The notes below the pieces were generated by a model, which saw nothing but the letters and a program-made list of their open reading frames with translations, did no database searches and had not been told where the DNA came from. From Porphyromonas circumdentaria (GTDB lineage: Bacteria; Bacteroidota; Bacteroidia; Bacteroidales; Porphyromonadaceae), in NCBI RefSeq assembly GCF_900167105.1, contig NZ_FUXE01000018.1, forward strand, positions 1 to 35,206: DNA of 35,206 nt, given 5' to 3'. Positions within the stretch are counted from its first letter, which is position 1. Every line of letters starts with the position of its first letter. This document shows positions 31,595 to 35,206 of the stretch, piece after piece. The position numbers were made by a program, and so were the translations under genes.

Positions 31595-34270
31595 ATGAGA
31601 CAGAACAGAGTACGTTTTATGAGTCTATTGCTCTTGACACTCATTAGCATAGGCTGGACCTACGCCCAGACGTTGGTAACGGGTAAGGTTTTAGATAAAG
31701 AACTAAAGAGCCCTATCGTCGGAGCTTCTGTAAGTACAGGTCAGGGAGCTACTCTCAAGGGTACTACAACCGATGCAGAGGGCAACTTTAAACTCGAGGT
31801 ACCACGCAACGCTACACTTACCATTAGGAGCGTTGGTTATGTATCTTACACCCACAAGCTATCGGCTACTACACGTACCTACGCATTGGGCACCATTTAC
31901 TTGGTAGAGGATGCGGTTAGCTTGGGACAGGTAGAAGTTATTGCCTCTATCGTGCCCAAAGACAGAAAGGTACCCGTACCCGTTTCTAATATCTCGTTGG
32001 CACAAATCGAGAGCAAGGCATTCAATACCGAGTTCCCCGAACTTCTTAAGTCTACTCCTTCGGTATATGTAACTCGTTCAGGGGGTGGTTTTGGAGATTC
32101 TCGTATCATGATGCGTGGTTTCGACACTAACAACCTTGGGGTGCTTATCAACGGAGTGCCCGTAAACGACATGGAGAACGGACGTGTTTACTGGAGTAAC
32201 TGGGCTGGACTCAACGACGTATCCTCTTTGGTACAGGTACAGCGAGGTTTGGGAGCATCTCGCCTCGGTATATCTTCTGTCGGAGGTACCATCAACATCG
32301 TAACAAAGAATGTAGATGCTAAAAAGGGAGGAAGTGTATATACGGGTATTGGTAACGACCAGTATGTCAAGTACGGCTTCAGTATCTCTACAGGTTTGAT
32401 GGACAACGGCTGGGCTGTTACTGCTTCGGGAGCTACCTCTTACGGAGATGGATATGTAAAGGGAACCGACTTCCGTGGATGGAGCTATTTCTTGAACCTC
32501 TCTAAAAAAATCAACGAAGACCACACTCTTTCTTTTACCGCTTTTGGTGCTCCTCAGTGGCACAACCAAAGATCGGCTCGCCATACACAAGAGCAGTATG
32601 CAGAGCATCCCGACAAAGAGCGTATGAACTTAGAGTATGGTTATCTCAATGGTGGGGTATACTCTGCTCGCCACAACTTTTATCACAAGCCACAACTCTC
32701 ACTCAACCATCTTTGGAGAATAGACGAACGCTCTTCTCTCAGCACAGCTGTTTACGCTTCTATCGCTAACGGAGGTGGACGTCGTGTAGATGGCAAAATC
32801 GAAAAAGTTGGAGGAAAAACAGTGCGCTATACCAACTGGATCGAGGCATATCGTGGCAAACTTGACCCTATCGCTAAGCGTACAGCGAGCGGACTTGTAG
32901 ATTGGGAAAGCATTTTCGCTGCCAATGCTGCAGAAGGAGATAAAGGTTCCAAAGTTATCCTTGCCAACAGTGTCAACAACCACCAATGGTATGGTATCCT
33001 CTCTACCTATCGCAATCGTTTGGATGAGCAGTTCACCATCACAGCAGGGGTCGACGGACGTCTCTACAAAGGCGATCACTACAAGCAAGTGTATGACCTT
33101 TTGGGCGGTGTGAACTATCAAAATCAGCTACTTAAAAACCAAATAGACGCAGGTAAGACTTTCCTCAAACCTGGCGACATCTTTGACTACCATAATATCG
33201 GTGAGGTAGTATGGGGAGGAGCTTTTGCTCAGGGAGAGTTTACCAGTGACGAATTTGATGCTTTCTTATCAGGGTCTCTAACCTATCAAGGTTATCGTTA
33301 CCTCGTGCCCGACGGATACAACGAAGCTAATTATAAAAAGTTGGCTGCAGATATACGCGACCGTGCCGCTTCTGACCGCGTGAACTTCATGCCCTTTAGT
33401 ATTAAGGCGGGAGCTTCTTACAAATTCCTCGATTACAATAACGTGTTTGTCAATGCAGGTTACTTCACTCGTGCTCCTCATTTCGGGGGGACGTTCCTCA
33501 ACTACTCTGCAGAGATCAACAAGAACTTGACCAACGAGAAAATCCTCACAGCAGAGTTGGGTTACGGATTTACCAACGAGTATGTTCGTGTCAATTTGAA
33601 CGGTTACTACACCAAGTGGAACGACCGTTTCTTGCGTCGCTCAAGTGTACTCGATACACGTCAGTACTTCAACTTCCGTGGTTTGAACGCACAGCACATG
33701 GGGGTAGAACTCGAGGCAGAGGCTCGTCCCGTAGATGAATTACGCCTTAACGCTATGATTTCTTGGGGAGACTGGCGTTGGGGTGGTAAGACGCTCTTCG
33801 ATGTATATGATGAGTCTCAAACAAAAGTGGGCGATGGAGAGATTAACCTCAAAGGTGTACACGTAGGTAACTCAGCTCAGTTCACAGCAGCTTTCGGCTT
33901 CGATTGGGAAGTATTCTCCAAGCTCCACCTCCGTGGTAACGTGAACTACTTTGGTAAGAACTATGCAGACTTCGAACCCACCAACCGTCTTTCTAAGAAA
34001 GGTGGAGAAATCGAGGTGTATACTGGTGATGCCTGGAAGATGCCCGATTACACATTGGTAGACCTCTCTGTAAGCTACAACTTTGAGCTTTATAAGGGTA
34101 TGACAGCCACCATCTTCGGAGGCGTTAATAACCTTTTCAACACTCGCTACATAGCCGATGCTACCGACGGTGTTAAGGTAGATAGCAACAACGTACGTAC
34201 AGGTGAAGATGCCCTCGTATGGTACGGATTTGGACGCACTTGGCAGATGGGTATGCGCGTTAACTTCTAA
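31595..34270 (+). CDS. TonB-dependent outer-membrane receptor with carboxypeptidase-like domain
   Basis: An 891-residue outer-membrane receptor. A signal peptide (FMSLLLLTLISIGWTYAQ, about residues 8-26) precedes a carboxypeptidase-regulatory-like domain (about 28-108: TGKVLDKELKSPIVGASV, then DAEGNFKL). The plug domain follows (about 125-230), with PELLKSTPSVYV, RIMMRGFDTNNLGVLINGVP and SSVGGTINIVTKN, then a beta-barrel ending GRTWQMGMRVNF with the terminal aromatic. No SusD partner follows, so it is not a SusCD polysaccharide locus; the substrate (iron, cobalamin, peptide or other) is unknown. It is a single gene ended by a strong terminator at 34378-34417. Confidence 0.92.
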   Translation: MRQNRVRFMSLLLLTLISIGWTYAQTLVTGKVLDKELKSPIVGASVSTGQGATLKGTTTDAEGNFKLEVPRNATLTIRSVGYVSYTHKLSATTRTYALGTIYLVEDAVSLGQVEVIASIVPKDRKVPVPVSNISLAQIESKAFNTEFPELLKSTPSVYVTRSGGGFGDSRIMMRGFDTNNLGVLINGVPVNDMENGRVYWSNWAGLNDVSSLVQVQRGLGASRLGISSVGGTINIVTKNVDAKKGGSVYTGIGNDQYVKYGFSISTGLMDNGWAVTASGATSYGDGYVKGTDFRGWSYFLNLSKKINEDHTLSFTAFGAPQWHNQRSARHTQEQYAEHPDKERMNLEYGYLNGGVYSARHNFYHKPQLSLNHLWRIDERSSLSTAVYASIANGGGRRVDGKIEKVGGKTVRYTNWIEAYRGKLDPIAKRTASGLVDWESIFAANAAEGDKGSKVILANSVNNHQWYGILSTYRNRLDEQFTITAGVDGRLYKGDHYKQVYDLLGGVNYQNQLLKNQIDAGKTFLKPGDIFDYHNIGEVVWGGAFAQGEFTSDEFDAFLSGSLTYQGYRYLVPDGYNEANYKKLAADIRDRAASDRVNFMPFSIKAGASYKFLDYNNVFVNAGYFTRAPHFGGTFLNYSAEINKNLTNEKILTAELGYGFTNEYVRVNLNGYYTKWNDRFLRRSSVLDTRQYFNFRGLNAQHMGVELEAEARPVDELRLNAMISWGDWRWGGKTLFDVYDESQTKVGDGEINLKGVHVGNSAQFTAAFGFDWEVFSKLHLRGNVNYFGKNYADFEPTNRLSKKGGEIEVYTGDAWKMPDYTLVDLSVSYNFELYKGMTATIFGGVNNLFNTRYIADATDGVKVDSNNVRTGEDALVWYGFGRTWQMGMRVNF

Positions 34271-34377
34271 CGCCACTCCGCATAGTACCAAGGGGCGAAA
34301 GACTTTGGAAAAGTATTGACTTTTGCAGAGCATTTTTGAGAGAGTGTAAAGCTCCATTCCCTAAGGTGCCTAACAAT

Positions 34378-34417
34378 AAAAAGCTGTATCTCGCACAAAA
34401 ACGAGCTACAGCTTTTT
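34378..34417. terminator. Strong terminator after the TonB receptor
   Basis: AAAAAGCTGTATCTCG (34378-34393) pairs with CGAGCTACAGCTTTTT (34402-34417) with one mismatch and an 8-base loop. A-runs and T-runs on both sides make it a bidirectional intrinsic terminator. Confidence 0.85.
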
Positions 34418-34491
34418 CTTTCTTTTCTCTTTCCTTTGTCACATATCCGAAGGAAGTATTTATTTTTAGAGCCAGAGAAAAAGGTAGACAG

Positions 34492-34587
34492 GTACTAATC
34501 GCACTATAATAGAATTGAAACTAGGAGATGCTATCGGTGGGGCTGCAGGAGAGTGGCGTACTAATCGCATTATAATAGTATTGTAAG
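34492..34587 (+). CRISPR. Minimal CRISPR-like unit: two 30-nt repeats around one 36-nt spacer
   Basis: Repeat 1 (34492-34521) begins GTACTAATCGCACTATAAT and ends ATTGAAAC, the 3' end seen in many type I-B and type III CRISPR repeats. Repeat 2 (34558-34587) matches it at 26 of 30 positions, with changes at repeat positions 13, 22, 27 and 30, so it is degenerate towards its 3' end as terminal repeats usually are. The start-to-start distance is 66, leaving a 36-nt spacer (34522-34557), a normal spacer length. No further copy is found 66 bp to either side, and no cas gene is in the window. It may be an orphan or nearly lost array, or a lone two-copy repeat. Bases 34588-34807 show nothing else I can identify. 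Confidence 0.55.
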
Positions 34588-34807
34588 AGAGTACCTTTCA
34601 AATCTGCGCTACATTCCCATATTTTTTTTTCTTACCCCAGAGGGAGAGACAGGTTATAACAAAACCGACCTTTCATTTTTCTCCTCACTAACTTTTTGCC
34701 TGCGAACTATCTTGCTGAGGAGCAGAGTGTTACCATTTAGTAGTGAATAGATAGGTAACGATTAAGAAATGAGCGGAGTGCTTTGAGGTACACTGTTTTG
34801 AATAGCC

Positions 34808-34870
34808 AAAGAACGCTCACTATTATCACTTGCAAAGATATTGATTTGTGAGCAAAAGTGAGCGTTCTTT
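34808..34870. terminator. Perfect 14-bp inverted repeat downstream of the right-edge gene
   Basis: AAAGAACGCTCACT (34808-34821) is the exact reverse complement of AGTGAGCGTTCTTT (34857-34870), with a 35-base loop. It lies 36 bases past the stop of the minus-strand partial gene, so it may be its terminator. The loop is long for an intrinsic terminator, so it could instead be a recombination or element-end structure. Confidence 0.5.
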
Positions 34871-34906
34871 CGTGATTTTCTTCTTTGAGAAGAGAGAATT
34901 TGTTCC

Positions 34907-35206
34907 CTACATCCTTCGTCCCCGTTTCTTTCTCTTGTTGGCTTCGTGGCGCAGTCTCCGCTGAAAGGCGGTTTCGGCATAATTCTCTCCATGGACTTGG
35001 AAGTCCAGTACACCGCCAACACCCGATGCAATCCCTTCGGCAACAACATCCACTACGCTCTCAACAAGGCTTGGTTCAGGACTTGGTGTTGGCTGTCGCT
35101 TTTCTTCTTGTAAAGGGCTTTTCGTCTGATAAATTGGAACAGAAGAGTGATAGGGAGCAGCATAGGACAGCCCGAATTGTTTCAGCAGCGAGTTATATCC
35201 AAACTC
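34907..35206 (-). CDS. Partial gene, C-terminal 99 residues; possible mobilisation/relaxase protein
   Basis: Read from the right edge on the minus strand, a frame stays open for 99 codons to a TAG at 34909-34907; its start lies outside the window. It opens EFGYNSLLKQFGLSYAAPYH, has a Q/P/S/E-rich linker (LQEEKRQPTPSPEPSL), a small glycine-rich segment (VAEGIASGVGGVLDF) and a highly basic tail (NKRKKRGRRM). A disordered linker and a terminal basic cluster are common at the C-terminus of Bacteroidota relaxases/mobilisation proteins, and that is my tentative reading; the catalytic part is not visible. An element-borne origin would fit the accessory character of this edge. It is low-confidence as to function, good as to coding. 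Confidence 0.55.
   Translation of the reverse strand, partial: EFGYNSLLKQFGLSYAAPYHSSVPIYQTKSPLQEEKRQPTPSPEPSLVESVVDVVAEGIASGVGGVLDFQVHGENYAETAFQRRLRHEANKRKKRGRRM

Follow-up and report, generated by a model that had tools for sequence, protein, structure and literature searches.

A leaderless one-spacer CRISPR unit of the resident repeat family in Porphyromonas circumdentaria, probably the detached end of a former or displaced array

A short repeat-spacer-repeat unit near the end of a Porphyromonas circumdentaria contig is a genuine CRISPR unit, ordinary in kind, which carries the repeat of the arrays found elsewhere in the same genome. It is a leaderless orphan of that resident repeat family, most likely a leader-distal array end that became detached, the array itself being a former or a displaced one. 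The window, that is, the whole stretch of DNA analysed here (35,206 nucleotides), is the complete contig C28 of an assembly of 2.03 Mb in 35 contigs. For the comparison with relatives, one genome per species was considered. The features of the unit and of its surroundings are listed in Table 1.

Table 1. Features in and around the CRISPR unit (positions in the window)
Feature	Positions	Strand	Remarks
Hairpin downstream of the TonB receptor gene, its stem ends rich in A/T	34375..34420	+	inverted repeat I2
Would-be leader stretch	34421..34491	+	neither leader nor TAnnTTTG box
Repeat 1	34492..34521	+	GTACTAATCGCACTATAATAGAATTGAAAC; 30/30 against the array repeats of C10, C17 and C25
Spacer	34522..34557	+	36 nt, 61% G+C
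Repeat 2, degenerate terminal repeat	34558..34587	+	GTACTAATCGCATTATAATAGTATTGTAAG; 26/30 against repeat 1
End of the integrated mobilizable element	34683..35206		outside the CRISPR unit; marks the boundary

The initial annotation described two 30-nt repeats, 26/30 identical and separated by 36 nt, and both direct reading and the repeat search bear this out. In the alignment of the two repeats the substitutions fall at positions 13, 22, 27 and 30, and the best pair observed in 20 Markov-shuffled windows, with any pair 55-79 nt apart considered, reached 21/30. Repeat 1 is perfect and repeat 2 has drifted by 4/30. The ending ATTGAAAC that had been claimed for repeat 1 is present on reading, and the description of the second repeat as a degenerate terminal repeat holds as well, the last repeat of the array on contig C17 being likewise degenerate; that repeat also stands at 26/30, with changes that mostly differ from those of repeat 2. 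The proposed CRISPR nature of the unit is established by the identity of repeat 1, at all 30 positions, to the genome's own array repeat. The 30-nt repeat is unstructured as RNA in the fold prediction, the fold of the whole unit is no better than that of its shuffled versions (z -0.11), and no Rfam family was found in the window at gathering scores. An unstructured repeat with the ending ATTGAAAC presumably suits processing by Cas6.

A genome-wide search with the 30-nt repeat, allowing up to 3 mismatches, returned 31 matches, all 31 of them perfect, so that 30 other perfect copies are present besides repeat 1; the reversed pattern, used as a control, had no match genome-wide. The 31 copies are distributed over the array on C10 (27), contig C17 (one), contig C25 (two) and the window (one). 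Those on C17 and C25 are located at contig ends, i.e. these contigs break inside arrays, and from their orientation the two array ends look like parts of one broken array. The C10 array (C10:56785-58507; L010:786-2508) consists of 27 repeats, every one of which, including the last, is perfect. The spacers of the other arrays (n = 28) are 34-37 nt long with a G+C content of 27-62%; the window spacer falls inside this length range and its G+C content is equalled by one of the 28. At up to 3 mismatches the repeat is absent from the 25 other genomes of the genus (1/26, the one being its own). The repeat of Porphyromonas gingivicanis differs from the resident repeat at 4 of the 30 positions, and repeat 2 carries the resident base at all four of them, which argues for its derivation from the resident family.

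The initial annotation placed the unit in a gap with few genes, flanked by core genes and by a probable mobile-element gene, and this agrees with the positions of its neighbours: upstream, the gene for a TonB receptor, 92% identical to that of P. gingivicanis JCM 15907, ends at 34270, and downstream an integrated mobilizable element extends from about 34683-34693. Parts of the left end of this element have matches in 16 of the 26 genomes of the genus (own included). Among the 44 element matches listed, the start falls within 34682-34693 in 24 and at 34675 in one; the remaining ones start further in, except for the self-match of the window. An alignment of 9 copies shows a common element end at about 34683-34693. 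The element end thus lies 88-106 nt (about 100 nt) past the unit, and the possibility that the unit is cargo of the mobile element is ruled out, since it lies outside the element boundary. As a separate observation, the gene next to the left end of the element is often missing from the matches to this end, as though the end were also able to move or persist alone.

The gene pnp, whose protein is 98% identical to that of P. gingivicanis, is located at C6:11106, and contig C28 appears to adjoin contig C6, with the element separating the TonB receptor gene from pnp. Two tyrosine recombinases lie side by side before pnp on C6 (L208:1-10900), with a NikA-like mobilization protein further out. Among the 26 available genomes the pnp locus was checked in 9, in one of which (P. 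gingivicanis) the TonB receptor gene was within reach. Even with 8 mismatches allowed, nothing resembling the repeat was present at any of the 9 pnp loci checked. The only comparable interval between the TonB receptor gene and pnp among these loci, that of P. gingivicanis, has no trace of an array and no ORF of at least 80 aa.

It is the missing leader, and not the missing cas neighbours, that sets the window unit apart. The leaders of the C10 and C25 arrays are 79% identical over 122 nt (E 1e-23), and both carry a TAACTTTG box starting 11-12 nt ahead of the first repeat, which fits TAnnTTTG, the promoter box of Bacteroidetes. Two P. gingivicanis arrays have a similar leader end, but with TAATTTTA in place of TAACTTTG. 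When the 222 nt before repeat 1 were compared with the C10 leader, the only leader compared directly, no alignment better than E 0.42 was obtained. The TAnnTTTG box does not occur on either strand at 34250-34700; the whole window holds 25. A single promoter-like site was predicted at 34200-34760, on the minus strand, with 0.9 expected. In P. gingivicanis, too, the TonB receptor gene is followed by a hairpin, which is weakly similar to the one between this gene and the unit. The hairpin in the window was not called by the terminator scan; it is probably the terminator of the TonB transcript. With neither a leader alignment nor a TAnnTTTG box and with a probable terminator behind the TonB receptor gene, transcription of the unit appears doubtful. 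Of the options offered in the initial annotation, that of a newly seeded array is unsupported; new seeding is unlikely because the unit lacks the leader that precedes the arrays of C10 and C25, and because its terminal repeat has by now diverged at 4 of 30 positions.

The unit indeed has no cas genes beside it, as described initially, but this does not distinguish it, as no array with the same repeat abuts cas genes, and the nearest cas genes found to any such array are about 10 kb off. By eye, no cas gene was recognised among the listed ORFs of at least 100 aa around the C10 array, over about 21 kb on its upstream and 17 kb on its downstream side, or among those listed for the initial 20 kb of C17. 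Genes for Cas6, Cas1, Cas2, Cas4 and Cmr proteins that could serve the unit were, however, found in trans. Cas1 has two matches genome-wide, on contigs C19 and C11. Contig C11 encodes Cas6-Cas4-Cas1-Cas2, all above the NCBIfam cut-offs, and the profile libraries and PADLOC label the set as Cas1b/Cas2b/Cas4b/Cas6b, type I-B-like. Contig C25 encodes Cmr1-6 (type III-B), in an operon 10-17 kb into the contig from its array end; Cmr2, Cmr3, Cmr4 and Cmr6 score above the NCBIfam cut-offs, while Cmr1 was identified by PADLOC only and Cmr5 by PADLOC with a score slightly below the NCBIfam cut-off. The two RAMP matches of the genome are both within this operon. DevR/Cas7 (PF01905, type I-A/B), the one I-B effector family covered by the search, has no match in the genome. 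The set on C19 is of type I-C (Cas3, Cas5, Csd1, Cas7, Cas4, Cas1 and Cas2), and the array belonging to it has its own, different repeat, GTTTCAATTCACGCAACCC... As there is no other candidate, the C11 set, the III-B effector and the 30-nt repeat were paired: the gene content suggests that the resident repeat family is served in processing and adaptation by the Cas6-Cas4-Cas1-Cas2 set of C11, and that its effector is probably the Cmr complex of C25.

No array was found beside the C11 cas set. Three overlapping A/T-rich repeat copies, ATATACATATACGCAA-like and 21 nt apart, are present about 300 nt from cas2 on C11 (L025:10303-10380), and an ATATA/ACGCAA motif resembling them also occurs beside L039.

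Of the two remaining options in the initial annotation, the relic fits these data best, while an orphan array that relies on the cas genes present in trans is a possibility. The unit would have been stranded when the leader-distal end of an array, former or displaced, became detached. Without a leader, it would probably acquire no more spacers, and repeat 2 may have drifted because little depends on the last repeat. If the unit is transcribed, presumably from elsewhere, Cas6 could cut the intact repeat 1 and leave the ATTGAAAC handle, and a single crRNA could be loaded in trans. Decay would be expected in both repeats of a pure relic, yet repeat 1 is perfect, which leaves room for a recent stranding or for function. 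An ancestral full array at the site of the unit was not seen among the loci checked.

The room left for function raises the alternative of a working single-guide locus, transcribed, processed by Cas6 and loaded onto Cmr in trans, for defence against one element or for gene regulation. The perfect state of repeat 1, the source of the 5' handle, and the candidate machinery in trans (the C11 Cas set and the C25 Cmr genes) are in its favour, and minimal CRISPRs with two diverged repeats are reported to give crRNA-like guides (PMC8501985). Such a locus is nevertheless unlikely here, given the lack of TAnnTTTG at 34250-34700, a sole promoter-like site that is on the minus strand, a probable terminator between the TonB receptor gene and the unit (though one that the scan did not call), and a spacer whose matches to its flank and to the genome's own DNA are at chance level. 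Within about 1,340 nt of flank no spacer match is longer than 7 nt, a length that 958 of 1000 shuffled spacers equalled or bettered, and the first 6 nt of the spacer are absent from both strands of this flank; in 199 kb of own DNA the longest match is 11 nt, reached or exceeded in 216 of 300 shuffles. The spacer is also absent, at up to 3 mismatches, from 37 other genomes of the family, and it occurs once in its own genome. An 11-nt match falls in the I-C gene for Csd1 (cas8c), but an anti-cas spacer was rejected, since there are 17 identities over the 36 nt and 11-nt matches are ordinary in shuffles.

In the search for an external target, BLAST of the spacer against phages and plasmids produced chance-level matches only (E at least 1, limit 10), none of them covering 80% of the spacer. 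In viral contigs there was no match to exact 26-nt or 23-nt spacer patterns, nor, by exact matching, to two degenerate patterns for the spacer reading frame GDAIGGAAGEW. When four of the 28 other spacers were searched singly against phages at a limit of E 1, no match was found either; the window spacer at the same limit had only matches printed as E 1. The absence of a target is therefore no oddity, the four array spacers tried being likewise without a phage match.

A second stray repeat is present on contig C17. This solitary copy (C17:28802-28831; L213:8802-8831) is identical to the resident repeat at 25 of 30 positions. It is flanked by a gene that by eye looks transhydrogenase-like and by the ORF that follows; the intergenic stretch between them exceeds that of P. 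gingivicanis, the one relative compared, by about 100 nt. As a control, 200 shuffled repeats had no match at 5 or 6 mismatches in 247 kb, with both strands included in this length. A leader was not seen beside this repeat.

A second ectopic copy, in a stretch longer than that of the relative, speaks for a dispersal of repeat units to new sites by off-target Cas1-Cas2 integration or illegitimate recombination, the window unit then being no array remnant, and the lack of a visible leader at both sites is in keeping with such dispersal. However, off-target integration duplicates the sequence of the local site, so that one would not expect either copy to be a perfect array repeat; the C17 copy is solitary and could just as well be a collapsed array, and no target-site duplication was recognised by eye. 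Dispersal is thus regarded as improbable. More improbable still is an assembly artefact, in which a misjoin at the 30-nt repeat would have set an array end beside the TonB receptor gene. The assembly is fragmented (35 contigs), and C17 and C25 break inside arrays of the same repeat; nevertheless, the 27-repeat array of C10 was assembled through, and the spacer, second repeat and trailer of the window unit occur nowhere else in the genome. The detached array end remains the preferred explanation.

With a shift of 1 nt, the DNA behind the C17 stray repeat agrees with the window spacer at 19 of 36 positions, a level found in 2 of 1000 shuffles. A P. gingivicanis spacer, however, scores higher on the same DNA (29.5 vs 25), which makes the resemblance a lead only. 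Segments scoring as high as the window spacer against this DNA number 21 among 11,210 in the genome, and beyond the repeat the upstream and downstream parts of the two loci are not significantly similar. It is very doubtful that the window unit and the C17 stray are diverged copies of a CRISPR-derived III-B guide RNA gene, as a type III counterpart of CreA.

The window unit provides a clean example of CRISPR-family repeat units standing outside arrays. Such strays, if transcribed, would offer material from which regulatory RNAs of CRISPR origin can arise; RNAs of this sort are known for type I. It also serves as a warning that a one-spacer match without cas genes may be real CRISPR and yet a remnant.

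Among the known systems, orphan arrays share with the window unit the repeat-spacer-repeat organisation without cas neighbours and a repeat identical to that of arrays in the same genome, an identity which makes service in trans possible; it differs from them in its single spacer and missing leader. Distance from cas genes is a feature that the window unit shares with the large C10 array, which does have a leader. In neo-CRISPRs, which arise by ectopic Cas1-Cas2 integration, two copies of a local, non-array target flank the spacer; this class was rejected here, as repeat 1 is a perfect array repeat and not a chance look-alike.

CreA of the CreTA systems resembles the window unit in having a single spacer-like segment between two non-identical repeats and works with the type I Cascade (PMC8501985; PMC9458426). 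Both repeats of CreA are highly degenerate, with mutual identities of 11/30 to 16/30 in the four haloarchaea covered there (PMC8501985), whereas in the window repeat 1 is perfect and the pair stands at 26/30. The window unit further differs from CreA in that its compatible effector is probably of type III-B, and in that its spacer has no partial match to the flank beyond chance, unlike the partial complementarity of CreA to a nearby promoter. The toxic RNA CreT, which adjoins CreA in such modules, is very small and of highly diverse sequence. Virus-borne mini-arrays and solitary repeat units (Racr) are likewise very small units that copy a host repeat (PMC8616872; PMC10651486), but the window unit lies outside the adjacent mobile element. 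Exact matching of the 30-nt repeat against the viral contigs gave nothing.

Within the genus, the available portion of a Porphyromonas CRISPR survey contains no mention of a one-spacer orphan (PMC5570325). It links most repeats of up to 32 bp to type I-C and those of 37 bp to type III-B (PMC5570325), and the pairing of a 30-nt repeat with III-B suggested here by gene content departs from that linkage. The nearest relative found, P. gingivicanis, has types I-C and III-B according to the same survey (PMC5570325), and these correspond to both of the sets identified in this genome.
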